Shown piece after piece: positions 1 through 23,287 of a stretch of 64,000 bases of DNA. Source of the stretch: Gulosibacter molinativorax. GTDB lineage: Bacteria > Actinomycetota > Actinomycetes > Actinomycetales > Microbacteriaceae. Under the pieces are notes generated by a model. It searched no databases and was not told where the DNA came from. It saw only the letters and a program-made list of their open reading frames with translations. The first letter of the stretch is position 1; each line of letters opens with the position of its first letter. The position numbers and the translations under genes are program-made. The stretch is from assembly GCF_003010915.2 (NCBI RefSeq), contig NZ_CP028426.1, forward strand, positions 1,240,001 to 1,304,000, in the 5' to 3' direction.

Positions 1-3000
1 AAATCTCCTCGCGGATATCCCCGAGCGGCGTGCCCGGCCCATCGGTGAGCAGCACATCCTTCGCCAGACGAACCGCCTGCTGCCCACCATCTGCGGCGAC
101 CTGGTCGAAGACCGCGGCGAGGAACTGCCGCTTCAGGATCTCCCCCGCGTCGAGGTAGGTCGCAGGCGGCGTCACCTCGCCGTCGATCAGCTCGAGCGGG
201 TCCTGATACCACGCGAGCTGGTCGTGCCGCCCGGGTACGAACGCCAGTGCCAGCGCGCTACCGCTCAGTCGCCCGGCGCGGCCGACGCGCTGCACGTAGC
301 TCGCGACGGTCTGCGGCAGCGACGCGAGCACGACGGTCGAGAGGTCGCCGATGTCGATTCCCATCTCGAGGGTGGGCGTCGCGACGAGCACGTTCGGCGC
401 ATCCGGCGCGGGGTCGGTGCTCTTGAACGCCCCCTCGTACGCCAACCGCACATCGTCCGGCAGCAGGCTCGTGTGCTCGCGCGCGACGACGCGGCGCATA
501 TCGGCCTCTTCGTACAGGCTGCGGTAGAAGTTCGGTTTCTTCAGCGCGTGGCGCTGCAGCGTGCCGCCCTCGCACTGCATCCCGGGGCATGGGCTGCCGG
601 CGAGCTGGGCGACGGTCGTGGGGCTGCCCGCGGTGAGCGCACCGCAGCGGTCGCACTCGAGCATCGTGTTACCCGCCTCGCGGTCGGCGGCGGATGCGGG
701 GCTCACCAGGATGCGGTCGGGCGTGATCCCGAAGGCGTGGCTCCCGCCGCCACGGGTGATCGGATAGGTATCGAGCAGCCCGCCCTCGGCGAGCGACTCG
801 AACAGGCGCCGCGCGAGTCGACCGCCCGCGTCCTTCGGCACGCCGAAGAGTCGCGAGGTCCAACGCGCGTACCAGCCCTGCGGTGAGGCGAGGTCATCGA
901 GTAGGAACTCGACCTTGCCCTGCTTGGGGTTCGCACCGACCCGCGCGAACGCGGGCGCGCTACGGCCGCGTGGGAATGCGGGCATGCCCTCGGCCTTCGG
1001 TCGGCCGCCCCACACGCGATAGCGCATACCGCTGTCGGCGATGTACGTCTTGAGCCACTGGTGATAGATGCCGCCGCGCGAACGCAGCTCCTCGAGCGTC
1101 CCGCGGGCCCACGCGACGAGCGTCGCTGGCGACACGACCCCGTCCGCGCCGAGCTCGGCGTCGAACTCGAAGCCGGTCACCGCATCCCGCGCGAGCCGCT
1201 CCAGCAGCGTCGCCGAGCCGGATACGACCTCGACGGTGACTGAGCCGGTGCGCTCGAGCGTGCGCGCGAACGACGACTGCAGCCCGAACTCGAGCTGCAG
1301 GTCGAACGCGAGGCGCTTCGCGACGCGCAGGCGCACGTTCACGTCGATGCTCGCGGCGTCCTCGGTATCCCAGAACGAGCGAAAGCTTTCGCGTTCCACG
1401 ATGTCCGGCCCCAGCAGCCGGTACCGCTCCGAGCGGGTCTGCGCGCGGGCGACCAGCTCGGTCGAGAGCTCGTCGAGGGTGCGCGGCTGGTCGCCGAGCG
1501 CGCGGCGGATCGCGTTGCGCAGCCCAAACGTGTGCGCGCGGCTCTGCACGAAGCCGGCGCGGTGCGCGGCGTCCTGCACGCTGTCGGTGAAGACGAGTTC
1601 TTTCTTCTCGGCCTCGTCGAGATCCCCGTCGCCGAAGAGCGCGGTCGTGACGACCGAGAGCATGGTCGCGACTGCGGCACCCATGAAGCGGATGCCGTCG
1701 CGGCGACCGCAGGCGGGGCACGTCTGGCTGTTGGATTCCTTGCTCGCGTCTTCGCCGTCGAGCCAGCGCACGGGCAGGATGTTCGAGTCGGCCTGGCCGT
1801 GATCGCGCTCGTCGCCGGCGAGGTCGGGATGCGTCGCAAACACGCGACCGTTGGGCACGTCCCACCACCCGAAGCCGGGGACGGGTGCGTTGCTCGTGTA
1901 GTGCTGATCGGCCTCGCGGTCGGCGTAGATGAGCGCCCGGAACGTGCCGGTCCGCTTCACGGCCGTCTCGCGCGGGTTGACCTCTTTCTTCTCGAGGTCA
2001 CGCCCCTCGCCGGTGCCCTTCGACGAGACGCCCCAGCCGCTGCGCCCACAGTGGCGGCAGTAGAGCGCCGGCCATGCGTCGCGGCCCTGCTCCGAGAATG
2101 CGTCGGCACCCTCTTCGACGATCGCCTCGCCGTCGTCGGTCCACCGGAATGCCACCGTTGGTCCGGCGACGCGATCGATGCGCGTGACCTCGCGGATCCA
2201 CGCGTTCACGTCCACCGACGGTGCCGAGAACCCGACCGCCGCGCGCACCTGGCTAATCGCCGCGACGATCGCGTTGACGATGTCCGAGGCCGCATCGACT
2301 TCGACCGTCAGCGCATCGGCATGCAACTGCAGCACAAGCTCCTTCAGCGAAATGGGAGATGCGGTGTGGCGCAGAAGTTGTTGAACGGTGGGATGCACCC
2401 GCAACGCATCGTGCAACTCCTTGGCGCTCAAATCCGTTGGCCGAGTAGCCCGAACCTGGTCCGCTTGCCGAGTAGCCCGTTCCCCATCCGTTTGCCGAAG
2501 AGCCCGAAGGGCGTATCGAGGCCCCGCACCAGCTTCACCTTCCGCATAAAGCTGCGCCACAACCTCCCGAGCAATATCGAGCGGCCCATCCCCCGCACCC
2601 TCAACCGCGGCACGCATCGCCACAGCATCGATCGCTTCCGTGCCGACGCCGCCAAACGTCCGAGCAATTCCAGCCGGAACCAGCTCGGCAGCCCCAGCCC
2701 ACTCCTCGACCGAGTGCCGCGTCTCCGACACGACACTCGACGCATCGAACCCGCCGCCAAACACGGTATTCGCGAAATCGACCATCACCATCGGATCATC
2801 GCCACCAAGCGTCGCCGACGTCGCGACGGGCGTGATCTTTCCGAGCGGCGCAGCTTCCGCCGCGTCATCGATCCCGAAGGCCTTGCGCGCCGCCGGGTTT
2901 GTGGGCCAGTTGCGCTTGAGTGCGAGCCCGAGCCGACGCAGCAGCATCGCGACGTCGGTACCCTGCGCGCCGTCGTAGGTGTGGAATTCGTCGAGCACGA

Positions 3001-3733
3001 GGTATTGCAGGCTCGTCGCGCTCTGCTTCCACAGCGACTGGTCGTCGGGGCGCAGCAGCAGCTGGTCGAGCATCTTGTAGTTGGTGAGCAGGATGTCGGG
3101 CGCCTTTGCCCGCATCACGCCGCGATCGGTGATGAGCCCGTCTTTGTTTACCTTCGAGGGCTTGGCGCCCTGCTCGCCGATGTACAGCCCGGCCGAGATT
3201 CCCGCCAGCTGCGGATCCTCGGTAATCAGTTTCGCGAGTCGTCGCGCCTGGTCATTCGCCAGCGCGTTCATCGGGTACAGGATGAGCGCCTTGAGCCCCG
3301 ATTCCCCCGCCTTCTGCGCCCGCAGCACGTGATCGATGATCGGAAACAAAAACGCCTCGGTCTTACCCGACCCGGTCCCGGTAGTAACGAGCGTCGGCAG
3401 GGGCCCAGACCGCTCATTGAGTAGCGCGGAGCGCGTATCGAAATGAGCCTTACGTGCAGACGACAGCCGTTCAAACGCCGCCAACTGATGCCCGTGTGGT
3501 GGATACGCCGCCCCGTACCATTCGAGCACCGCATGCGCGTCGCGCTCGGCAGCCTTGAATGGCATCCGCGTGCGGATATACGGCCCCCGAAAGATCCCGG
3601 TCCGCTCATCCGAGAGGAACAGATCGAGCTCTTTCGCCACCTCGCGGTCGGCAAGCGCAAACGTCGTGTCGAGGTAGTCGCTGATCGACTGCCGGAACCG
3701 ACCGACCTGCAGCGAGGGCAGCAGCGCGACCAC
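1..3733 (-). CDS. Large DEAD/DEAH-box helicase with Cys clusters, DrmA/DruE-like (partial)
   Basis: The gene is open from a GTG at 3733 to the window edge, about 1244 residues, so the C-terminus is missing. The GTG overlaps the methylase stop (TAGTG), so the two genes are probably translationally coupled. Motifs seen are Walker A GTGSGKT (about residues 119-125), a DEFH Walker B near 248 followed by TYDGAQGTDVAMLLRRL, a long middle region with CRHCG and CPACG pairs, and C-terminal helicase motifs ATPTLEMGIDIGDL and QRVGRAGR near 1125-1155. These match superfamily 2 helicases of the DUF1998-associated kind (MrfA, DrmA, DruE). The SNF2 and methylase genes next door favour a DISARM-type role (DrmA), but the size and zinc-like clusters also recall DruE. 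Helicase is certain; the subfamily is not. Confidence 0.85.
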   Translation of the reverse strand, partial: MVALLPSLQVGRFRQSISDYLDTTFALADREVAKELDLFLSDERTGIFRGPYIRTRMPFKAAERDAHAVLEWYGAAYPPHGHQLAAFERLSSARKAHFDTRSALLNERSGPLPTLVTTGTGSGKTEAFLFPIIDHVLRAQKAGESGLKALILYPMNALANDQARRLAKLITEDPQLAGISAGLYIGEQGAKPSKVNKDGLITDRGVMRAKAPDILLTNYKMLDQLLLRPDDQSLWKQSATSLQYLVLDEFHTYDGAQGTDVAMLLRRLGLALKRNWPTNPAARKAFGIDDAAEAAPLGKITPVATSATLGGDDPMVMVDFANTVFGGGFDASSVVSETRHSVEEWAGAAELVPAGIARTFGGVGTEAIDAVAMRAAVEGAGDGPLDIAREVVAQLYAEGEAGAGPRYALRALRQTDGERATRQADQVRATRPTDLSAKELHDALRVHPTVQQLLRHTASPISLKELVLQLHADALTVEVDAASDIVNAIVAAISQVRAAVGFSAPSVDVNAWIREVTRIDRVAGPTVAFRWTDDGEAIVEEGADAFSEQGRDAWPALYCRHCGRSGWGVSSKGTGEGRDLEKKEVNPRETAVKRTGTFRALIYADREADQHYTSNAPVPGFGWWDVPNGRVFATHPDLAGDERDHGQADSNILPVRWLDGEDASKESNSQTCPACGRRDGIRFMGAAVATMLSVVTTALFGDGDLDEAEKKELVFTDSVQDAAHRAGFVQSRAHTFGLRNAIRRALGDQPRTLDELSTELVARAQTRSERYRLLGPDIVERESFRSFWDTEDAASIDVNVRLRVAKRLAFDLQLEFGLQSSFARTLERTGSVTVEVVSGSATLLERLARDAVTGFEFDAELGADGVVSPATLVAWARGTLEELRSRGGIYHQWLKTYIADSGMRYRVWGGRPKAEGMPAFPRGRSAPAFARVGANPKQGKVEFLLDDLASPQGWYARWTSRLFGVPKDAGGRLARRLFESLAEGGLLDTYPITRGGGSHAFGITPDRILVSPASAADREAGNTMLECDRCGALTAGSPTTVAQLAGSPCPGMQCEGGTLQRHALKKPNFYRSLYEEADMRRVVAREHTSLLPDDVRLAYEGAFKSTDPAPDAPNVLVATPTLEMGIDIGDLSTVVLASLPQTVASYVQRVGRAGRLSGSALALAFVPGRHDQLAWYQDPLELIDGEVTPPATYLDAGEILKRQFLAAVFDQVAADGGQQAVRLAKDVLLTDGPGTPLGDIREEI

Positions 3734-6700
3734 TACCGCACCGCCTCGCGCTGCGCGGCCTCGTCAGTGCTGCCTCGCAGCGACGACCCGGCCGAATCCG
3801 AAGTCTCGTTCTCCGTAAACTTCCGCTCGAAGTATGCGTACGCCTCGCGCATCTCGGCCTCGCGGTCGAGCGTGCGGAACGGCAACTCGTACTGCGTCGG
3901 ATTCCCCGCCGCGTTCTCGATGAAGAGTTCGTCAGGCGTCATGTCGACGTCGACGAGGACGCCGGGCGTGAGGTCGCCGCCGCGCTTGCGCCACTCGCGC
4001 ACGAGGTGCACGGGCACTTCGCGACCGTTCATGTCATAGACGTACTTGTTCTTGTCGTAACCGTAGAGCACCGGGAACTGCGTACGGTAGATCGTGCAGA
4101 GCTCGTCGGCGGTAATGCCGAGGCTCAGCGCAACGATCGCGTCGATCTCGAGGAGCGCCTGGCGGCGTTCGGCGTCGAGCCGGAGAGGGACGGTGTCGTC
4201 CCATCTGCCCGGGAATGCGGCTTCGAGTGGTTTCGCGTCCTCCCACCATGGCGTCACCGCCCACTCGCGTGGTTCATCGCATTCTCGATATAGCTCGCTG
4301 TATTCGTACGTGAGGGCGGTGAGTCGACCAGTTCGCCACACAAGGTCCGCCCTGAGTGCTCTGAGCTCCGGGACAGAAAGCCGGCCGACAGTTGCGGCAG
4401 TGATCGTTGACTTCGGTACCAGTCGAAGCTGCATATCCGAGATCAGGGAGGAAAACACTCCACCGAGTTCGATGAGCCGGGACGAGGAATTTGAATCCGG
4501 ATCGCCGATTGAGGTCACCGCGTTGATATGTGCGGTTCCGGGCGGAACAACTGCACCAATGAGCGTGCGTTCTCCAGTGTTCGCCGCCATGTTTCGCCAC
4601 GCAAAGCGGAAGTATTCCCGCGCGCTCTTCTCGCCCCAGTGCGTGTACTGCGCGTCGTAGGCGGCGTCGCGGTACGGCTTGTACGAGGTCACCGGCAGCG
4701 CGTCGGGCGCGAGCGTTTCGAGGTCGACGCGCGTCCAATCCTGATTGTGCTTCATCGTCTCGTTCGGCGACTTGAAGAACGGGTGCGCGACGTGGAGGTG
4801 CACTCCCTGCAGAATCACATCGTCCCACGATGCGGCGGGACCCCAAGCGACGTCGAAGCGACCCTTCTGTCGGTCAGTCGTTTCGTTCCATCCTGTGGAA
4901 GACTCCAACCCAAGCGAACCAAGTCTCGGCTGCTCGACGAGCTTCTCAAGAACACCTTGCAGACTCGAAGTCACGGTGTAGACCATTGACGTCTCGACAG
5001 CAGGTACATCGAGGTCTCCTAAGAAATCCCGCCAAGAAGACAGAACATCGAAATCTACATTCGTGATCCGCGAAGCGTGCGGCCGCAAATCCCATCGACC
5101 TTCTTCATTCTTGATTCCTGGTTCGTCGCCTTCCCCGTTATGGATAAGTGATCCTTCAACGCTTTCCGGATGATAAAGGGATACAGCATTACGAAACTGA
5201 ACGTCTTGCGTATGCCCATAGACGTGGATGCCGTATACAACCTGGTCGTCAATTTCTCCAAACAGCATCAGTTCATTCTTGAATTGCCAATGGCGTCGCA
5301 AGCGTACATAGACCGACCGTCGAAATGACCCACCTTTTGCATCGGTAAAGTGCGTATCTGGGTGAATCAATGAAGTCATGCCCGGATCCGAGCTGTGCCG
5401 CCACGTCGCCACCATGAAGCACCGATACAGATCAGGGGTCATTCCGGACAAGCTCGCATACTCGTTTCGACTGCCCACAAACGCAGCCGTTGAAAGCACG
5501 TCGCTCAATCCGTCGGCCACCAATTCAGGCATCCCGGGCAGGCTCAGCGCATCACCTCGATGAATGGCCTTCTGTTGCTGTGTCGCCTTGGGGTTCAACT
5601 GCCACCAAGGATCAGCTTCGGCATAGAGTGCCTCAATATCGGTCTGCGGACGCACCCACGGCGGGTTCCCCACCTGCAGGTCGAAGCCGCCGCGATTCGC
5701 CATGACCGACGCGAAGTCGAGATCCCAGTGGAAGAAACCCTGCGCATCCGCCACCGACCGCGCCGTGCGCAGCCACGGGTGATCGCGCAGTACGTCGTCC
5801 ATCGGCATCGCGTTCGCGTAGCCGAGGTCGAGGTCCTCCGACTCCCCCAACCCTTCCCAGTTGGTGCCGATCAGGAAACCGGTCTGGCCCGCATCCTTCG
5901 CCCTTGTATTGGCCTCGAGGTGGACGCCGAGGATGTCCTTCAGCGCATCCAGCCACTGCTCGAATGTCGGCGGCACGTCGTTGCGGTCGCCGATCGGCAC
6001 GGGCCAGAACCACAGCGCGCACCATGCGTTCATCACGAGCCGCAGGCGCTGATACGCGCCGTTCGGGTCGGCGAGCTTCCGTTCGATCTCCTCGCGACTG
6101 ACTGAACCCGACGCATCCCGCTCGGCGTCGTGGCCGAAGATATCGATCGGGCGGCGGGCCTCGCGCTCGGCGATCTCGAGGCGACGCACCACGAACTGCC
6201 AGAGCCGCTCGACGCGCAGCGAGAGGTTCTGCAGCTGCTTGATCTGCGGGTTGGTGGGCTGCTTCGTCACCGTCTTGCGCCAGTCGCGCAACGCCTTCGC
6301 GCCCTCGGGCGAGAGGTACTTGACCTCTTTATTGTCGGCCGCCGCGGCCCAGCCCTCGGCGGGCAGCAGGAAGTGGAAGATCTTGCCGCTCGTCGCGGTG
6401 GCGAAGCGGTCGTCGCGGAGGTCGTCGGCGAGGGTTCTCGCCGAGATCTCGGTCGGCTCGGTTTTGAGCCAGCCACGCTTCTTGAGGTTGTCGGTGCTGT
6501 ACATCGCGCGGCGGGCACCGATGAGCGAGTTCCCGCGGCGCAGGTGCAGGCCGAACCACGGCGCATCCAGACCCTTGAGCATCGTATCGAGCCACAGCGA
6601 AATCTCGGCAAGCTCGACCGCCGTCGCGTTGAGGTCGACGCCATACACCTGGTGCAGCGCGATGTGCGCCTTCACGCGCTGCAGCTCCTGCGGGTAACGC

Positions 6701-8655
6701 TCCGGGTCGATCGTCGTTCCGGTCTCTTGCTGCTTGCGCTTGAGGTACTCGGCGGCGAGCTGACGCGTCGCCTCGATCGCGAACGCGCCCGAGCCGAGCG
6801 CGGGCTCGCACACGGTGAGCTGCAGGATCTCGTCGGCCGGCGTAGTGGTGTCGTTCTGGTCGAGCAGCTCGGCGAGCGCCTGCGACACCGTGAACTTCGT
6901 GAGCACCTCGGGCGTGTAATACGACGCCGACTGCTGCCGCGCCCGGCCCGAGAGCCGGTACACGAACGTGCCGCGACGGTGCAGCACCTTCTCGGGTGCG
7001 CCGGTGAGCTCGTTCTCGGTCATCACGAAGTCGCTGTCGCTGAGGTGCCCGGCGCGGGCGACCGGCACAACCCACGAGCCCTTCGACGAGTCACCGTTCT
7101 TCGCGACCTCGTACAGGTCGTCCTCGGCGAAGAAGCCCGTGTACGACATGAGGCCCTCGTACACGGCGCCGAGCTGGTTGATGCCGAGATCGGCGTAGCT
7201 GATGAAGCCCCGATCCTGATTCTTCTGCTTCTTCGAGAGCAGCAGGCGGGCGAGGATGCGCGTCATCGCCCCGTCGCCGAGGCCCACCTCGCTGATGAGA
7301 GCGATCGCCTCGGGGCGGAAGAGGTCGGCGCGGAGGCTGTGGAAGGTGAGGCCTTCGGTTGTGGTTGCGTCTCGATACGCTTCGCTACTCGACGATCCTT
7401 GGCCGTGACCCTGGTCGACGAGGCGGAACAGCACATCCAGCGACTCGTAGACGTGCGTTGCCTCGCGGGCGCGCGTCGACTCGAGCTCGACGAGCGCGAG
7501 ATCGCGCAGCCGGTCGACGCTGTAGCCCTCGCCATACTCGGGCGAACCGACCGGCAGCACCTCGAGCTCGGGCGAGGCCTCGGCGTAAAGCAGGAACAGG
7601 ATGCGGTAAAGGTACCGCAGCGCTTGCACCGCGAGGGGCTGCGCCTGATCTTGTGGGAGCGGTGGGAGGTTTTGGTCGCGACGGCGGCGCACGACCTCGT
7701 TCGCGATGTCTTCGATCGAGAGCCGGACTCCTTCGCGGAGGTCCTCGGAGACGCCGACGGCGTGCTTCTTCGAGGCCTCGATGACCTCGGTCCACCACGG
7801 CGTGCCGGAGTTCTCGATGCCCGCGGGTTCGAAGCCCTCGACGGCGATCGCGGCAATCGCCTTGTCGAGCTCGCCAGCCTGCTTCGTGTCGTTGCGCTCG
7901 ACGACAAGCTGCAGGTCGATCGCCAGGTAGCGGCCCTCGGGCCAGCGCTCGCGATCGGTGAGCAGCAGCCACGAACCCGCGAACACGAGGGCGTAGGGCA
8001 CCTCGTTCACTTGGAAGATGCGCGAGAGCAGCCGCGGCACCGCGGTGATCGGGTGATTCTCGTCGTCCTCGGGGATGTAAGGCTCCGTGAGTGCGTGCTG
8101 GTCCGCGCCTGCCGAGCCGTTCGTTATGGCCCCGTTCGTGCCGTTGACCTTGCGGAGCAGCTCATCGACCGACTCGGCCGGCAGCGCCTCGATGATCGCG
8201 AGGAAGGGCGTGTCGACGCCGTCCTCGTGCAGCCAGCGCACCGGGCCCTCGCGGCGCTGCTCGACAAAGCCGGCGTTGACGCCGATCGCGGTGGCGAGGG
8301 TTTCGTAGAGGAGGTCGTCGAGTTGTTGGGTTGCGTCGGGGGCCTCGATACGCGACTTTGGCGCTACTCGGCCATCGTGGGTAGCCTTCGGCGCCACGCG
8401 GCTCTCGTCGGTCGACTGCATCCAGGAGGCGCTGCCGTCGGCCGCGAGCTGGCCGAGGGTGCTGTAGCCCTCGACGAGCTTGCCGCGCTGCGACTTGAAG
8501 CGGCTGCGCGCAGACTCGTGGCCCTCATCCTCGATCGACTTCCAGCGCTTGTGGCGGCGCTGCACCTCCGCCTTGAAAGACTCGGACTTCGCGTCGGTCG
8601 TGAAGAAGTGCTCGCTGAGCCAGCTCTCGCCGATGATCATTGCGTCGTCTGCCAT
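3733..8655 (-). CDS. Eco57I/PglX-type N6-adenine DNA methylase, DrmMI-like
   Basis: This 1640-residue protein has the amino-methyltransferase motifs: CEPALGSGAFAIEA (SAM-binding motif I, near residue 615) and GNPPW (catalytic motif IV, near 995). The order and the long insert between them are those of Eco57I, PglX and DrmMI enzymes, which methylate adenine in host DNA to mark self. It starts one base after the SNF2 helicase stop and its own stop overlaps the next helicase start, giving a tight operon. I see no obvious nuclease motif. Two stretches (near residues 80-107 and 420-430) are encoded by copies of a dispersed repeat and look like tolerated insertions. BREX PglX is the main alternative, but no pglZ or brxC is in view. 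Confidence 0.85.
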   Translation of the reverse strand: MADDAMIIGESWLSEHFFTTDAKSESFKAEVQRRHKRWKSIEDEGHESARSRFKSQRGKLVEGYSTLGQLAADGSASWMQSTDESRVAPKATHDGRVAPKSRIEAPDATQQLDDLLYETLATAIGVNAGFVEQRREGPVRWLHEDGVDTPFLAIIEALPAESVDELLRKVNGTNGAITNGSAGADQHALTEPYIPEDDENHPITAVPRLLSRIFQVNEVPYALVFAGSWLLLTDRERWPEGRYLAIDLQLVVERNDTKQAGELDKAIAAIAVEGFEPAGIENSGTPWWTEVIEASKKHAVGVSEDLREGVRLSIEDIANEVVRRRRDQNLPPLPQDQAQPLAVQALRYLYRILFLLYAEASPELEVLPVGSPEYGEGYSVDRLRDLALVELESTRAREATHVYESLDVLFRLVDQGHGQGSSSSEAYRDATTTEGLTFHSLRADLFRPEAIALISEVGLGDGAMTRILARLLLSKKQKNQDRGFISYADLGINQLGAVYEGLMSYTGFFAEDDLYEVAKNGDSSKGSWVVPVARAGHLSDSDFVMTENELTGAPEKVLHRRGTFVYRLSGRARQQSASYYTPEVLTKFTVSQALAELLDQNDTTTPADEILQLTVCEPALGSGAFAIEATRQLAAEYLKRKQQETGTTIDPERYPQELQRVKAHIALHQVYGVDLNATAVELAEISLWLDTMLKGLDAPWFGLHLRRGNSLIGARRAMYSTDNLKKRGWLKTEPTEISARTLADDLRDDRFATATSGKIFHFLLPAEGWAAAADNKEVKYLSPEGAKALRDWRKTVTKQPTNPQIKQLQNLSLRVERLWQFVVRRLEIAEREARRPIDIFGHDAERDASGSVSREEIERKLADPNGAYQRLRLVMNAWCALWFWPVPIGDRNDVPPTFEQWLDALKDILGVHLEANTRAKDAGQTGFLIGTNWEGLGESEDLDLGYANAMPMDDVLRDHPWLRTARSVADAQGFFHWDLDFASVMANRGGFDLQVGNPPWVRPQTDIEALYAEADPWWQLNPKATQQQKAIHRGDALSLPGMPELVADGLSDVLSTAAFVGSRNEYASLSGMTPDLYRCFMVATWRHSSDPGMTSLIHPDTHFTDAKGGSFRRSVYVRLRRHWQFKNELMLFGEIDDQVVYGIHVYGHTQDVQFRNAVSLYHPESVEGSLIHNGEGDEPGIKNEEGRWDLRPHASRITNVDFDVLSSWRDFLGDLDVPAVETSMVYTVTSSLQGVLEKLVEQPRLGSLGLESSTGWNETTDRQKGRFDVAWGPAASWDDVILQGVHLHVAHPFFKSPNETMKHNQDWTRVDLETLAPDALPVTSYKPYRDAAYDAQYTHWGEKSAREYFRFAWRNMAANTGERTLIGAVVPPGTAHINAVTSIGDPDSNSSSRLIELGGVFSSLISDMQLRLVPKSTITAATVGRLSVPELRALRADLVWRTGRLTALTYEYSELYRECDEPREWAVTPWWEDAKPLEAAFPGRWDDTVPLRLDAERRQALLEIDAIVALSLGITADELCTIYRTQFPVLYGYDKNKYVYDMNGREVPVHLVREWRKRGGDLTPGVLVDVDMTPDELFIENAAGNPTQYELPFRTLDREAEMREAYAYFERKFTENETSDSAGSSLRGSTDEAAQREAVR
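7369..7398. repeat. Dispersed repeat copy inside the methylase gene
   Basis: A short copy of the 'CTCGATACGC...GCTACTCGACGA' family lies inside the methylase gene and is translated as a Ser-rich loop near residue 420-430. The same words recur at 8334, 8695, 15670, 17302 and 24682. Confidence 0.6.
8334..8412. repeat. Degenerate dispersed repeat inside the methylase gene
   Basis: A degenerate copy with CTCGATACGC and GCGCTACTCGG, followed by a partly repeated GTAGCCTTCGGCGCCACGCG. It is read in frame and gives the doubled residues SRVAPK / GRVAPK near residues 82-105 of the methylase. Confidence 0.55.
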
Positions 8656-8656
8656 G

Positions 8657-11600
8657 TCAGCGCGCCTCCTCGTTTTCTTCGTTCGCGTTTCGATACGCCG
8701 CTTCGCGGCTACTCAACGAGCCTTCGCTACTCAACGGGCCGCTCGAGCCGACGGGCCAGTCGACGGGGACGACCACGAGCAACGGGCGCACCGAGAGGTG
8801 GTGCGGGCGCATCGACTCGGCGAGCTGCGCCTCCTCGCTGATCTCCGACTTACGCTCGCGAAGCACGCGACGCTGGGCCAGCGCATCCGCATCCTGCTCC
8901 CACTCAGCCACGCGCTCGAGCCAGCGTTGCACCCGCTCCTCCACCGCATCCGCGATGCCCTGGAAGTGGCCGCGCGCGTATACCTCGCTCTGGTCGACCG
9001 CGGCGGTGATGAGGCCCTCGAGCGGGGCCGTGTCGACCGCGCCCGGGTTCACGAGCTGGTTCTCGGCGGTGAGCCCGAGGGTGGACAGCGCGGCATTGGC
9101 TTCCGGATGCACGCCCGTGATGAGCATGCTTGAGTCGTCGCCGAACTGCGTCTGCGTGAGGTGCATCGCGGCGACCGTGCGCGCTTGCCGATCCGAGATC
9201 GTCGCGAGGAGGTACACCGTGGGCTCGTCGACGTTGCCGCGCACCGCAAACACCTCGTTGCGTCCGAGGCTCGTGAGGGTCTTATCGGCGACCCAGTCGA
9301 GCATCGGATGCAGTGGGCCAAGATAGTGCTCGGCTGGCCAGAGCGACGGTGAGGTCACCGAGTTCTGCGCGTCGTTCAGCGACCGCTTCGCGACGTCCTT
9401 CGACGTGGTCGTCGTGAACTGCTCGGTGACGTGGCGCTCGGCGAGGTACGACTGCGGCAGCACCCGCAGCCGATGATTCAGATCGCGCGGCGGGGTGAGC
9501 GCCATCGTAAAATTGGTCGTGCTCTCGCGGAAACCGACCCCGTTGTGCTCGAGGCTCTCGCCCGGGACGGGATAGGCCGTCTCGAGGCCCGTGCGAAGGA
9601 ACTCGCCGCTGTCGCGGAAGAGCCCCGGGGCGGGGATGTCGTCGGTGCGCGCCTGCGCATCCTGGCCGACTGTCCACTGGCCGTGTACAGCCTGCGTGTC
9701 TTGGGTCTCACCGACTTGGCCCGACGCATCCGTGCCGGGCCCTGCATCCTGTGGCCCTGCATCCTGTGCCTCTGCAACCTGCCCCTTGCCGCAGTTCGCG
9801 ACGTCGACGAGGAACGCGAGGAAGGGGTCGTCGACATCGTCGCTTGCGAGAACCTCTTCCGGCGAGGCGACGACGTCGTCGAGCGACTTCGTGCCGCTCA
9901 GCACGCTGCGGATCTCGTCTTCTTCCGCCTTGGCGTTGTACTTGCCCATGAGCGACGCCGTGTCGCCGAGGGCGCGGTGAGCCTCATCCTCGCGCTCGAT
10001 GAGCCGCGCGAGCACGTTCGCGTCGCCTTTGAAAAGCTCGTTGTCAAAGTCGAGTAGGAGCGTCGTAATCTGCGGCGGGGTGCGCTGACCGTAGCGGTCG
10101 ATGCGGCCGTTGCGCTGCTCGATGCGGATAAGGCTCCACGGAATGTCGAAGTGGATGAGCTCGTGGCACTGCGAGTGCAGGTTCACGCCCTCCGAGGCGA
10201 CGTCGCCGGTGATGAGCACGCGCAGCTTCGAGGACGCCTTGCGGAATTCGTCCACAATCTCCTGCTGCTCTACGTCGCTGAGGCCGCCGTGCAGCACGCG
10301 AATCTCGTCTGCGCTCAGTTTGAATCGCTGCTTGAGTTCGTTGTGGAGCCAGTTCAGGGTCGCGACGCGCTCCGAGAACACGACCGCGCGCTGGTCCTTG
10401 TGGTGGCCGATGCCGATGCTCTCAAGGTAGGTCTCGAGTGCCGCGAGTTTCGCCGACCCCTCGGCCAGCGCATCCTGGGCGAGGGCGCCGAGCTCATCGA
10501 GGGCCCGCTTTTCGCGCTCCTCGGCCGGGCTGCGCCCGAGCCGCTTGCCGCGCTCGCGCACCGTCTCGGCGAGCGCGACCGGGGACGAGAGGAATGCCTT
10601 CGCGAGCGTCCACGGGAACAGGCCCTTGTTCTCGCCCGAGTAGGGGCTCGGTGCCTGTCCGCCTTGACCCTGTGGCTTGAGCCATGTGGTAGCGAGGTGT
10701 TCGGCGAGGCGGTTCTCGGCGTCGGTCGCGGGGATGCGCAGGTTCAGCGGCTCCTTGCGCTCGGCCCAGTCGGCCCCCACCTCGGTCCTCACCTCGGGGC
10801 TGTGGCGGTGGCGGCGGAGGACGAGTCGCTGGACTGCCTTGCGGTCGACGGTGCCGTCGGGTCGCACCGCGCTCGGCTCGAGCAGGCGGATGAGCTCGGC
10901 GAACGACTCTGCCTTGCCGTTGTGTGGGGTCGCCGACGCGAGGATCAGCGCGTGGGTGTTCGGCGCGAGCGTGTGCGCGAGGCGGTTGTTGAGTGTCGCG
11001 CCGGTGATGTTGTGCGACTCGTCGATGACCACCGCATCCCAGTGGAACTTCTGCAGGTGCGCGCGGTACTGATCCTGCTTGAGCGTGTCGATCGAGATGA
11101 TCGCGCGCTTAAAGTAGCTGAATGGGTTTCGCGTTGCCGGGAGCTGTTGGCGAACTCGTTGCAGACCGATCGAATCGAGGCGCACGAACGGGAGCGCGAA
11201 GCGGGTCCAGAGCTCCCGCTGCATCTGCTCGAGGACGTGCTTCGGCGTGACGATCAGGATGCGCTCCCCCTCGCCGCGTCTGACCAGCTCGCTCAGGATC
11301 ATGCCGATCTCGATCGTCTTGCCGAGACCCACCGCATCCGCGATGAGGAGGCGGGGCCTGAGTTGCTCTTGGTCGAAGGCGCGTTTGACCGCCGTGAGCT
11401 GGTATTGCAGCGGGTCGGCGAGCATGTGCGTGCTCACCGTGAGCCGTGGCTCGGATGTGGGGATCGGCTGTCGTCTTAGCGTTGCTTCGAGCCAGAGCCT
11501 GGCGGTGCGGTATTGCGAGGAATCGTCGCCGATGAGTTTCGCCTCGCGAGTATTGAGCGGGATGATCTCGTCGAGGTCGGTGTAGAACGCGCCCGTGGTA

Positions 11601-11773
11601 TCTCTGACGAGTTCGGAGAGGCCGATGCAGCGGACGAGCGTGCCGGAGGTCGTCGGCTCGGTGTTCGTGACGAGCCACTCCGCGTCACGGACGATGACGA
11701 CCTCGCCGGGGGCCAACTGCGTGGCTGCGTGTTTCGCATTGGTTGCAGTGTCGGCTTGAGCAGTCTGGGTCAC
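8657..11773 (-). CDS. SNF2-family helicase, DrmD-like
   Basis: This 1038-residue superfamily 2 ATPase is the first gene of the three-gene cassette. It has ADAVGLGKTIEIG (Walker A, residues 145-157), DESH (251-254), SATPHNG (about 280) and a C-terminal helicase domain with GDVASEGVNL and EQRNGRIDRYGQ. This layout is that of RapA/SNF2-like helicases such as DrmD of class 1 DISARM. It starts at a GTG preceded by AAAAGAG. A Gln/Ala/Gly-rich linker near residues 660-700 is encoded by 15-bp repeats (9740-9784), and the last 30 or so residues are encoded by a dispersed repeat at 8695. No nuclease domain was recognised. Confidence 0.85.
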   Translation of the reverse strand: MTQTAQADTATNAKHAATQLAPGEVVIVRDAEWLVTNTEPTTSGTLVRCIGLSELVRDTTGAFYTDLDEIIPLNTREAKLIGDDSSQYRTARLWLEATLRRQPIPTSEPRLTVSTHMLADPLQYQLTAVKRAFDQEQLRPRLLIADAVGLGKTIEIGMILSELVRRGEGERILIVTPKHVLEQMQRELWTRFALPFVRLDSIGLQRVRQQLPATRNPFSYFKRAIISIDTLKQDQYRAHLQKFHWDAVVIDESHNITGATLNNRLAHTLAPNTHALILASATPHNGKAESFAELIRLLEPSAVRPDGTVDRKAVQRLVLRRHRHSPEVRTEVGADWAERKEPLNLRIPATDAENRLAEHLATTWLKPQGQGGQAPSPYSGENKGLFPWTLAKAFLSSPVALAETVRERGKRLGRSPAEEREKRALDELGALAQDALAEGSAKLAALETYLESIGIGHHKDQRAVVFSERVATLNWLHNELKQRFKLSADEIRVLHGGLSDVEQQEIVDEFRKASSKLRVLITGDVASEGVNLHSQCHELIHFDIPWSLIRIEQRNGRIDRYGQRTPPQITTLLLDFDNELFKGDANVLARLIEREDEAHRALGDTASLMGKYNAKAEEDEIRSVLSGTKSLDDVVASPEEVLASDDVDDPFLAFLVDVANCGKGQVAEAQDAGPQDAGPGTDASGQVGETQDTQAVHGQWTVGQDAQARTDDIPAPGLFRDSGEFLRTGLETAYPVPGESLEHNGVGFRESTTNFTMALTPPRDLNHRLRVLPQSYLAERHVTEQFTTTTSKDVAKRSLNDAQNSVTSPSLWPAEHYLGPLHPMLDWVADKTLTSLGRNEVFAVRGNVDEPTVYLLATISDRQARTVAAMHLTQTQFGDDSSMLITGVHPEANAALSTLGLTAENQLVNPGAVDTAPLEGLITAAVDQSEVYARGHFQGIADAVEERVQRWLERVAEWEQDADALAQRRVLRERKSEISEEAQLAESMRPHHLSVRPLLVVVPVDWPVGSSGPLSSEGSLSSREAAYRNANEENEEAR
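8695..8750. repeat. Dispersed repeat forming the 3' end of the SNF2 gene
   Basis: A full copy (TTTCGATACGCCGCTTCGCG then GCTACTCAACGAGC, followed by a second CTACTCAACGGGC) is nearly identical to the intergenic copy at 24682. Here it lies inside the coding region and supplies the C-terminal residues SLSSEGSLSSREAAYRN. Confidence 0.8.
9740..9784. repeat. 15-bp tandem repeat inside the SNF2 gene
   Basis: Three units, CCCTGCATCCTGTGG, CCCTGCATCCTGTGC and CTCTGCAACCTGCCC. On the coding strand they give repeated QDAGP residues in an apparently unstructured linker. Confidence 0.75.
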
Positions 11774-19923: not shown

Positions 19924-19974
19924 CTAGCTCCCGAGTGTGGCTAGCTCCCGAGCGCTGCTAGCTACCGAGTGCTG
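19924..19974. repeat. 17-bp tandem triplication across a stop codon
   Basis: Units CTAGCTCCCGAGTGTGG, CTAGCTCCCGAGCGCTG and CTAGCTACCGAGTGCTG. The third unit holds the stop codon of the minus-strand gene, so the gene's end has been tandemly copied downstream. Confidence 0.85.
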
Positions 19975-22747
19975 CCGTCGCGAGATCCTGGATGTTCGTG
20001 ACCTTGTCCGCGAACAGCGTTCCGAGGGAAGTGCCGGTCGTCGCCATCGAGTAGGCGCTCGGCTCAACCTTCTGCCACTCGGTAATGAGGTTGGTGTCCG
20101 CCTTGACCTCGGCGTCCGACACGGCTTGGCCGAGCCCGTCGAGTTCTGGGTACAGCGTCTCACCAACCGCGACCGTCGGCTCGGTCGAGCGGAGGTGGTC
20201 GACGATGGCCTGGTAGGCGTCGGCCGCCGCCTGGTAGTCGGTGGCGCCCACCGCACAGGCGTCGGCGAACTCGGACATGAAGCACTGATCCTTGTACAGG
20301 TTTGCGAGGCCCTCGTAGTACCCGACGTACGTGGTCTCCATCGCCGCCGCGAACTGCTCGCGCGTGTCGTCGTCGTAGAGGTTTGCACAGCCCTCGGGAG
20401 TGTCGCACTGGTAGTACACCGCGCCGTCCGAGGTGTCGATTCGGCCGCCCTCTTCGACGACGTATGCGTCTTCCATCACGCCCGTGACGTTGCTCTCGAA
20501 GGTGTCGTAGAGGTCCGCGTACGCCCCGTAATTGCCACAGAACTCGGACATCTGGGTGAGGTCCGTTTCGCTGCCGGCGAGGAATTCATCCGCCGAGGTG
20601 CGCTGGTCGGCAACCGTCTGCGCATCCTGCTGGGCCTGCTTGTAGGCCTCGGAGGCTTCTGCCGCGTCTTCCTGCGGAAGCGTCGGCACCGTCGTGTCGG
20701 CGAGTTGCTGACGCTGGTCGAGCGCAGGCTGGACGTCGGCGCACGCCGTGTCGAGCGCTTCACGATCGTCTGCGGCGAGGTCATACCAGGTGCGGTTTGC
20801 CGCGCTGATCGGGTCAGTGAGGTTCACGGCCGAGACTGCGGCGAGGTTGTCGGCGTTCCAGGTCGTGTTGTATTCCTCGAGCTGGTTGTTGAAGGTCGCG
20901 GCGAGGTTGTCACCACGATCAACGTTACGAGTGTGGATGATCAGCGGGATCGCGATCGCGGCAATGATGAGCACCGCGACGACCACGATTGCGGTAATGA
21001 GGTAGCTCTTCTTCTTGTACCAGGGCTTGCGCTTGTCATCCGACACATTGGCCGGTACGAAGCCACCGTTGCCGCTTCCGTCGCCCGGACCACCGGGTCC
21101 GCCCGGTCCGCCGGGACCTGGTTGCGCGTTCTGGAAGGGAACGTTCTGGTCGCCAGGGAATGCGGCCGGGGGTGCGCCGAATGCCTGGGTCGGAGCTTCG
21201 TTCTGCCCCTGCTGCCCGAAGGACTGGGGCTGCGCATCCTGGCCGAAGCCCTGCTGACCCGGCTGCTGGTTGAAGTTCTGCTCCTGGCCAAAGTTCTGCT
21301 GTTGGGTCGCGCCCTGATCCTGGCCGAAGTTCTGGCTTTGATCGAAATTCTGGCCCTGATCAAAGCCCTGGGCCTGGCCGAAGCTCTGGGTCTGGGCCGC
21401 GTCCTGGCCCTGGCCCCACTGATTCTCCGCGGGCGCGTTGTCGCCGCCCTGCTTCCAGGGCTGATTCGCAGCGGCCCATGCTCCCGCGCCAGCGGCTCCA
21501 GCGGCACCCGCGGCTGCAGCTGCGGTCCCCCAACCGGATGCGCCTTGACCGTCCTGGCTCTCGTCCGCGGGCTGAGCCTGGTCACCAAACTCGTTAGCGT
21601 TGAACGCTTCGGTCGGCTGGTTGTCAGTTCCGGAGGTGTCCGCGTTTGCGGAGCCGGATGCATCTGCCGGCCAAGCGCCAAAGGCCTCGGTGGGCTGGTT
21701 GTCATGTGCCGACACTGCGTCCGACGAAGCCTGCTGCGCGTCCGGCTCGTCGAATGCTGTGCTCTGCTGCTGATCGGCCGCTTCGTTGGCACCCGATTCG
21801 TCGGCTCCGCCGTCCGCAGCGACCGGCGTGGTCAGCATCTGGGTCGGAGGACCATATGAGCCCCAGTCGTCGGCACCCTGGTCGGCGCTACCGGTCGCCG
21901 CGAGTTCCGACTCCGAGTCTTCCGAGCCAGTGCCTTCAGTGTTTGCATCGCCCGGCTGGGGTTCGGGAGCGGCGGATGCGAATGCGGTCTGCTCTTCCCG
22001 TGCCTGCAATGCGCCGCCGTCGTGCGAGGCTGCAGGCTCGCCCTGTGCAGCTGCAGCGGTTGCGTCTTCGGATTCCTGCGACGCATTGAAGTTCGAGTAG
22101 CCGCCCGACCACGACGATTCGTTTTGCTGGGCGCTGTCGTCTCGGGGAGCCCCAAAGTTGGACTGCTGGCCCTGCCACTGGTTCTCGGCCGGGGCCTGCC
22201 AACCCGACTGCGCCTGCGCGTCTTGGCCGTGCGTACCCTGGGCCGGCTGCTCGCCAAAGTTGGGCTGCTCGCCAAAGTTCGGCTGCTGACCCTGCCACTG
22301 GCTCTCGGCGGGGGCCTGCCAGCCGGACTGGCCAGGAGCATCCTGGGTCGGCTGCTCGCCGAAGTTGGGCTGCTGGCCCTGCCACTGGTTCTCGGCCGGG
22401 GCCTGCCAACCTGACTGGCCTATTGCATCCTGCCCAGCCGGCTCACCAAAGTTCGGCTGCTCACCCTGCCATTGATTCCCGGCGGGAGCCTGCCAACCTG
22501 ACTGGACAGGCGCATCCTGACCTGACTGCTCACCAAAGTTGGGCTGCTCACCCTGCCACTGGTTCTCAGCTGGTGGCTGCCAGGCCGCGTGGCTCTGGTC
22601 GGCTGGGGCGTCGTTGCCTAGCTGCTCGTTCTGCGACCCGGAATCAGACTGATCCTGCTCGCGCTGCCAGCCATCGGTTGTCCACGTTGGAGTCGACTCG
22701 TCGCCGTTCTTCTCACGATCCTGGTCATTCCCTTGATTCCAAGTCAT
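19958..22747 (-). CDS. Repeat-rich one-pass membrane protein, unknown function
   Basis: A 929-residue protein. Residues 1 to about 585 are a low-complexity cytoplasmic region rich in Gln, Asn, Gly, Ala and Asp, with at least six copies of GWQAPAENQWQGEQPNFGEQ and later Phe/Gln/Gly units such as NFGQDQ and FDQGQN, ending in a Pro/Gly stretch. A basic KKKSYL then leads one membrane helix (about 590-612), and the C-terminal 320 residues with several Cys should lie outside. The start is the ATG at 22747 (MTWNQGNDQDREKNGD). I do not recognise the family. The N-terminus looks disordered and could mediate multivalent contacts; this is inference. Confidence 0.75.
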   Translation of the reverse strand: MTWNQGNDQDREKNGDESTPTWTTDGWQREQDQSDSGSQNEQLGNDAPADQSHAAWQPPAENQWQGEQPNFGEQSGQDAPVQSGWQAPAGNQWQGEQPNFGEPAGQDAIGQSGWQAPAENQWQGQQPNFGEQPTQDAPGQSGWQAPAESQWQGQQPNFGEQPNFGEQPAQGTHGQDAQAQSGWQAPAENQWQGQQSNFGAPRDDSAQQNESSWSGGYSNFNASQESEDATAAAAQGEPAASHDGGALQAREEQTAFASAAPEPQPGDANTEGTGSEDSESELAATGSADQGADDWGSYGPPTQMLTTPVAADGGADESGANEAADQQQSTAFDEPDAQQASSDAVSAHDNQPTEAFGAWPADASGSANADTSGTDNQPTEAFNANEFGDQAQPADESQDGQGASGWGTAAAAAGAAGAAGAGAWAAANQPWKQGGDNAPAENQWGQGQDAAQTQSFGQAQGFDQGQNFDQSQNFGQDQGATQQQNFGQEQNFNQQPGQQGFGQDAQPQSFGQQGQNEAPTQAFGAPPAAFPGDQNVPFQNAQPGPGGPGGPGGPGDGSGNGGFVPANVSDDKRKPWYKKKSYLITAIVVVAVLIIAAIAIPLIIHTRNVDRGDNLAATFNNQLEEYNTTWNADNLAAVSAVNLTDPISAANRTWYDLAADDREALDTACADVQPALDQRQQLADTTVPTLPQEDAAEASEAYKQAQQDAQTVADQRTSADEFLAGSETDLTQMSEFCGNYGAYADLYDTFESNVTGVMEDAYVVEEGGRIDTSDGAVYYQCDTPEGCANLYDDDTREQFAAAMETTYVGYYEGLANLYKDQCFMSEFADACAVGATDYQAAADAYQAIVDHLRSTEPTVAVGETLYPELDGLGQAVSDAEVKADTNLITEWQKVEPSAYSMATTGTSLGTLFADKVTNIQDLATAALGS
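22140..22570 (-). repeat. 60-bp coding repeats for the Trp/Gln/Asn-rich units
   Basis: Six or so copies of a roughly 60-bp unit encoding QAPAENQWQGQQPNFGEQ, with variable spacers. Copies are similar at the DNA level, so unit number may vary between strains. Confidence 0.8.
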
Positions 22748-22916
22748 GAGGTAAAGAATACGGCGACAAGGATGAGGAAACCCCCGCACCATGCGGAATC
22801 CCTCTCAGGTCGTAGTCGATTCAGGCAAGACAAGACGTGGAATCTGGAATATAGTAGTGAGTCTCAGGGTTACACCTGTTACAACTCAATAGCGCTGAGA
22901 GGTTTCAGCAGCAAAC

Positions 22917-23287
22917 GGGAGTGATCGGTTTCGACATGGCTCGTGAAACTGCGTGAAGCGGGTCGAGGACGCGGGGTTATCTCGTAAACGCCCCTCGCAA
23001 ACGATAAGTGCCAATAACAAGCGCACTGACTTCGCCCTCGCTGCCTAAGTAGCGAGCCCGAGTCCGTTAGCCCAGAATCGTGTTCGGTCTGGTTCCTAAC
23101 GTCATTTAGAACACTTGCTGTGTAGCTGCGTTGCAGGGCTGCACGGGACTTTTACTGTGACTGGGTTTGTGTCGGCCAAGGTGTTTGCCCCCATGGCCGG
23201 AACCAAGTAACACGCTCGGCAAACTGCACCCGGAGAATCCGCAGAATCTCAGTCGTGGACGGGGGTTCAATTCCCCCCACTTCCACT
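22917..23287 (+). ncRNA. ssrA: tmRNA
   Basis: Rescues stalled ribosomes and tags the nascent chain for proteolysis. The 5' end GGGAGTG pairs with CACTTCC at 23278-23284 to form the acceptor stem, and the conserved ATCGGTTTCGACA follows the 5' end. The tag frame at 23010-23048 reads ANNKRTDFALAA then TAA, a typical actinobacterial tag ending in ALAA. The T-arm GGGGGTTCAATTCCCCCC is at the 3' end. CCA is not encoded. The partner smpB lies 1.5 kb downstream on the other strand. Confidence 0.96.

Follow-up and report, generated by a model that had tools for sequence, protein, structure and literature searches.

A probable complete ARMADA Type II operon in Gulosibacter molinativorax and an insertion slot between armB and armC in its relatives

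Gene order, coupling and domains of the operon

The gene content and probable identity of a defence operon of Gulosibacter molinativorax were evaluated in a stretch of 64,000 nucleotides of contig NZ_CP028426.1 (G000:C1:1240001-1304000 of the host genome), referred to here as the window. The operon is very probably a complete ARMADA Type II operon (armA–armB–armC–armD), a phage-exclusion system. armA occupied positions 8657..11773 of the minus strand and encoded a BrxHII/RapA-like SNF2 helicase of 1038 residues with a GTG start, and armB (3733..8655, minus) encoded a PglX-like, Eco57I-type N6-adenine methylase of 1640 residues. Codons 1-1244 of the 2245 codons of armC, the gene for a YprA-family DEAD/DEAH helicase, lay at 1..3733 (minus), where the gene left the window at its left edge. 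Extension to the left gave the full armC (2245 residues, L007:11733-4996, ending at G000:C1:1236996) and armD, which lay outside the window (L007:4999-2684, equal to G000:C1:1236999-1234684) and encoded a UvrD/GajB-like helicase of 771 residues. Hence, the cassette consisted of four genes rather than three. The original prediction of a three-gene cassette at 1..11773 was right about the three genes that it placed, and it lacked the fourth gene and the remainder of armC beyond the edge. Its details were all found in the letters, namely the 1-base gap at the armA/armB junction (TGA-C-ATG), the 1-base overlap at the armB/armC junction (TAGTG), the DEFH box, the CxxC pairs and a third gene of more than 1240 residues (1244 codons in the window). 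The armC/armD junction (GTGATG) was a 4-base overlap, and the four genes were co-directional in the order of ARMADA Type II.

The association of these genes was also explored among relatives. A scan of genome_contigs with ArmB returned 32 loci, all of which we take to be from Actinomycetota. The SNF2 gene preceded the methylase in 31 of these, a large helicase followed it in 29, and the fourth gene was present as well in 20; several of the loci without a cassette gene ended at that point because the stretch was cut off. The association of the cassette genes among relatives was far beyond chance.

A 2025 preprint presented ARMADA as linking DISARM with Druantia (Bell et al. 2025, PMC12458937). 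Type II was given the same four-gene order, and its ArmD was assigned a RelE-like domain. Its ArmC was defined by a Vsr nuclease together with a BrxA-like insert, a beta-barrel zinc module, a MarR-like domain and a coiled-coil extension. In E. coli, the defence was non-abortive and needed all four genes, the latter as shown for the system of NCTC 12900. It was lost when the Walker A or B motif of ArmA and ArmC, the Walker A motif of ArmD or the NPPW motif of ArmB was mutated, and it was partly lost with a mutated Walker B motif of ArmD or S-adenosylmethionine (SAM) motif of ArmB (PMC12458937). The residue numbers given below for the E. coli proteins are those of NCTC 12900, and each falls on the named residue in the operon of E. 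coli ATCC 8739 (L044) too.

The four proteins carried the corresponding domains and motifs. ArmA matched SNF2-rel_dom (54 bits) and Helicase_C (63 bits) of Pfam and had the Walker motifs of the BrxHII/RapA-like helicase of ARMADA Type II; Walker A (GLGKTIE, residues 149-155, 11309..11329, minus) aligned with K136 of E. coli ArmA, and Walker B (DESH, residues 251-254, 11012..11023, minus) aligned with D236. ArmB matched Eco57I of Pfam (49 bits) and had both motifs of the Type II methylase, with the SAM-binding motif CEPALGSGAF (residues 616-625, 6781..6810, minus) aligned with G605 of E. coli ArmB and the catalytic NPPW (residues 997-1000, 5656..5667, minus) with N971. The full ArmC matched DEAD (69 bits), Helicase_C (43 bits) and MZB (42.2 bits, cut-off 24.2) of Pfam, so that the DUF1998/MZB part was fused into the helicase as in ARMADA Type II. 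Its Walker A motif (GTGSGKTEAF, residues 119-128, 3350..3379, minus) aligned with K110 of E. coli ArmC, and its Walker B motif (DEFH, residues 248-251, 2981..2992, minus) aligned with D234. Both cysteines of the CxxC pairs at residues 559-562 (2048..2059, minus) and 672-675 (1709..1720, minus) were present in 22 of 22 ArmC proteins, and those of the pair at residues 1027-1030 (644..655, minus) in 95 % of the 22. The C-terminal end of ArmC gave the Vsr rows (VIA) and had the form of the Vsr-type nuclease of ARMADA Type II, with the acidic and histidine residues intact; a Foldseek search of this end gave no match under E 0.001. ArmD had the features of the GajB/UvrD-like helicase of Type II, and its N-terminus aligned with that of E. 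coli ArmD, with weak or empty results for RelE by Pfam, PDB sequence or fold search.

Identity as ARMADA Type II and the alternatives

Direct comparison with the operon of E. coli ATCC 8739 gave 35.2 % identity for ArmA (424 bits), 35.2 % for ArmB (706 bits), 27.4 % for ArmC (591 bits) and 29.9 % for ArmD (256 bits). Each of the eight residues that had been mutated in E. coli aligned with an identical residue here, and the operon was thus like that of ATCC 8739/NCTC 12900 in its four genes, their order, their domains and these residues. The spacing was near-identical, with an armA/armB gap of 1 base here and 2 in E. coli and overlaps of 1 and 4 bases in both. Besides the identity of only 27-35 %, the differences were in the neighbourhood: the E. 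coli operon adjoins Druantia III and Zorya II, whereas the Gulosibacter operon does not, and no integrase was recognised among the neighbouring open reading frames (ORFs) scanned here (8 left, 6 right). The identity as ARMADA Type II is argued from the match in gene set, order, coupling, domains and the eight residues. The operon adds one more member to a system already on record and is not a new one, because ARMADA Type II was already named and tested in the 2025 preprint.

Three other explanations were weighed against these results. The first takes ArmB for a Type IIG restriction-modification enzyme that lies beside unrelated helicases acting separately, and the full-length match of ArmB to the PADLOC Type IIG family (1397 bits) fits it. 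However, the order and close coupling of the genes were kept in actinobacterial, cyanobacterial, alpha- and gammaproteobacterial copies, and the requirement for all four genes in E. coli (PMC12458937) does not agree with separate action. Moreover, the related BREX PglX enzymes were once listed as Type IIG in REBASE (PMC12707154). This explanation is very unlikely.

The second explanation is a Druantia variant built around a DruE-like helicase. ArmC and DruE are both large YprA-family helicases with CxxC modules and MZB, and DruE3 was the best PADLOC model for ArmC (260 bits, versus 62 bits for DrmA), which bears out the original prediction that the third gene looked like a helicase of Druantia type. 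In a tree of 15 proteins, DruE fell among the ArmC rows, and both DruE and the DrmA-DrmB row were on long branches. Against a Druantia variant, ArmC scored 112 bits with E. coli DruE and 591 bits with E. coli ArmC in BLAST, no DruH, DruA-D or other partner was recognised among the neighbouring ORFs scanned with PADLOC, and none of ArmA, ArmB and ArmD belongs to Druantia. DruE has other partner genes, and Druantia III has PLD domains, whereas ArmC has a Vsr-like end (PMC12458937). A Druantia variant is therefore highly improbable.

The third explanation is ordinary class 1 DISARM (drmD–drmMI–drmA with drmB and drmC beside them). Its gene order agrees with that found here for the SNF2 helicase, the methylase and the YprA helicase, and the first two genes were like drmD and drmMI, as had been predicted (ArmA 333 bits with DISARM_DrmD of NCBIfam, ArmB 180 bits with DrmMI of PADLOC), but this explanation is almost certainly wrong. 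The score of ArmA was below the cut-off of 610, and ArmC gave 27 bits with DISARM_DrmAL (cut-off 999) and 38 bits with a plasmid DrmA. In class 1 DISARM, drmA, drmB and drmC are separate, whereas here helicase, MZB and Vsr-like nuclease formed one protein and a UvrD gene stood where drmB and drmC would be; neither DrmB nor a PLD nuclease (drmC) was found in a Pfam scan of 14 neighbouring ORFs, 8 on the left and 6 on the right, which were a part of the ORFs present. Hence, ordinary DISARM and Druantia were both ruled out by the leftward extension and the direct comparison, and the arrangement by which the original prediction would have failed, a normal drmA followed by drmB and drmC, was not present. 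Its phrase for the cassette, an intermediate of DISARM and Druantia, was nearly the wording chosen for ARMADA by Bell et al. (2025), by whom the system was already named and tested, and the locus is hence no undescribed variant. ARMADA has been named as a defence system in at least three papers (PMC12458937, PMC12904381 and PMC13192584).

Distribution and the armB–armC slot in relatives

The spread of ARMADA Type II was evaluated at several levels. Full-length ArmB was found in 3 of 11 genomes of the genus (the own genome, G007 at 76 % and G002 at 69 % identity), and a fourth match was partial (36 %). In an even draw of genomes of the order, ArmB was found in 36 of 396 at E <= 1e-100 and the window part of ArmC in 37 of 396 at E <= 1e-60. 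A query with the C-terminal part of ArmB (E <= 1e-15) matched 37 of 396 genomes of the order and 8 of 396 drawn across the phylum; the own genome was counted in each draw of order or phylum, and the two draws of 396 shared some genomes. The Klebsiella pneumoniae plasmid NZ_CP031815.1 (L042; IncFIB, PLSDB type non-mobilizable) carried a Druantia III pair followed by the four ARMADA II genes, and the same four genes stood alone on Aulosira and Martelella plasmids. On the Tsukamurella tyrosinosolvens plasmid NZ_LR134452.1 (L043:5138-29600), DrmA- and DrmB-like genes lay directly before armA–armB, followed by armC in two ORFs and armD, and UvrD genes stood at either end of this DISARM–ARMADA composite. 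A further locus (L068, G324:C3:1001-21000) had the order rearranged to C-D-A-B on a single strand.

The junction between armB and armC is an insertion slot in relatives, often with other defence genes. The junction was measurable in 29 of the 32 loci (L023, L028 and L032 were left out), and 12 of the 29 had an insert of 1.86-9.07 kb (L008, L012, L013, L016, L017, L021, L024, L025, L029, L030, L035 and L037). Inserts of at least 0.9 kb occurred at the armA–armB junction in 1 of 31 loci and at the armC–armD junction in 0 of 20, a count that lacks loci in which an insert pushed armD off the stretch (Fisher tests against armB–armC, 0.0004 and 0.0006, respectively); the slot loci were not independent by descent, and four Corynebacterium loci were near-identical. 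In the order sample, armB and armC were at least about 1 kb apart in 12 of 35 pairs, as estimated from match ends; these pairs included the own locus and one rearranged operon, and the two samples overlapped (L016 and G029 lie on contigs of equal length). The insert ORFs scanned were mostly long ones, 10 of 45 in a first set and 10 of 51 in a second, and 15 of these 20 had a Pfam match at the cut-off. The matches were to AAA_15/AAA_21 ATPases, Schlafen-AlbA_2 proteins, a ThsB-type TIR protein, GmrSD, a caspase-helicase, helicases with or without a restriction endonuclease domain, a GTPase and a tyrosine recombinase. Two of the five ORFs without a Pfam match were inverted armB copies, and one was PD-Lambda-5-like (PADLOC, 126 bits). 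Many of the short insert ORFs are likely spurious in GC-rich DNA, and the generic PADLOC matches of ATPases do not denote specific systems.

Reversed copies of the 3' part of armB were found in the slot of two genomes. The copy of G222 had exact blocks of 158, 255, 267 and 335 bases in common with armB, separated by differing segments, of which the main segment corresponds to roughly 1356-1475 in the L055 ArmB. A tyrosine recombinase ORF (PF00589, 70.5 bits) adjoined the copy, and the two together lay in L055:6829-9991 (equal to G222:C2:834829-837991). The copy of G293 (L056:10666-14354) had 81 % identity over 984 columns in a slot of 11.7 kb, in which a GTPase and a helicase matching DUF2726 were also encoded; no recombinase was found in the 4 of its 7 ORFs that were scanned. 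Among the 37 genomes of the order that gave a match, 2 had armB copies on the opposite strand, against 0 of 7 others in the phylum draw, and none was found in the genome of the window. An inverted partial armB copy, in one case beside a tyrosine recombinase, suggests a switchable specificity. The part of Gulosibacter ArmB that corresponds to the differing segment of L055 was residues 1370-1489 (4189..4548, minus), a candidate specificity segment, and residues 1361-1480 were less conserved among 22 ArmB proteins.

The slot of the window itself was empty. Hence, the findings on the slot and the inverted copy concern relatives only, since the junction in the window had the empty form. Extraneous antiphage genes embedded in BREX clusters, and recombinase-driven methylase variation generally, have been described (PMC12707154) and are alike in kind; unlike those cases, the slot here was the armB–armC junction of ARMADA II, with an inverted 3' part of armB as the spare copy (L055 and L056). 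Neither the slot nor the inverted copy appears in the accessible text of PMC12458937, the main text of which has no wording on phase variation or inversion, and no report of an inverted armB copy was among the papers listed by literature searches.

Genomic surroundings, proposed mechanism and meaning

The surroundings of the operon were explored on both sides. An ORF of 225 residues lay 42 bases after armD, to the left of the window (L006:9964-10641, minus), and matched PD-T4-5 of PADLOC (46 bits); its RNRVSH stretch is reminiscent of HEPN RNases. It was considered as a fifth core gene and rejected, with no match in any of the 32 relative loci (those ending by armD could not show it). A match was found in one other of 11 genomes of the genus, at 28 % identity, and the ORF was thus regarded as accessory. 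Beyond it, a partial repeat of the 3' end of armD was observed (L006:8242-8640, minus; 88 % identity over 133 residues and 86 % over 401 bases), and with small ORFs between this repeat and armD, the arrangement resembles the scar of a duplication that surrounds inserted cargo. The operon of G002 was at the same place, between a major facilitator superfamily gene and a ligase gene, and its surrounding genes were different, a pattern like that of a defence hotspot. No empty site was found in the genus, where G002 carries the operon and the flanking genes of G007 are far apart. Insertion at the transfer-messenger RNA (tmRNA) gene (22917-23286, plus) was also rejected, since its 22-base 3' end had no second copy (<=4 mismatches) in the window or in L006. 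An ORF of 944 residues without a Pfam match (19958-22792, minus) adjoined this gene.

The mechanism proposed for the Gulosibacter copy is an inference that draws on the results in E. coli and on what is known of the YprA family. ArmB would methylate adenine at a specific site in host DNA, which would presumably mark it as self. ArmA (RapA/BrxHII-like) and ArmD (UvrD-like, with a putative RelE-like N-terminus) may load on or remodel incoming DNA. ArmC would act as a YprA-family translocase that has zinc-binding modules and ends in a Vsr-type nuclease, and it would engage unmarked or replicating phage DNA. ArmC probably nicks or cuts the DNA that it engages, with the Vsr domain as the putative cutter. 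If the copy is active, as its likeness to the E. coli operon suggests, its expected function would be non-abortive phage exclusion with a methylated self-mark. A 2026 review places ARMADA among the systems that restrict phages by unknown mechanisms (PMC12904381).

A broader proposal for Actinomycetota has about an even chance of being correct. ARMADA II would there be a phase-variable and upgradable platform with a slot for defence-gene cargo, in which, in some lineages, the reversed 3' copy of armB would allow a switch of the methylation specificity, located at about residues 1370-1489 of the Gulosibacter ArmB, and with it of the self-mark. If confirmed, the slot and the inverted armB copy would give direct access to the questions of where the specificity of ARMADA lies and whether methylation is the self-mark. 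Distant copies such as this apparently intact actinobacterial one, whose proteins are 27-35 % identical to those of an operon of the kind that was tested, show which residues matter.
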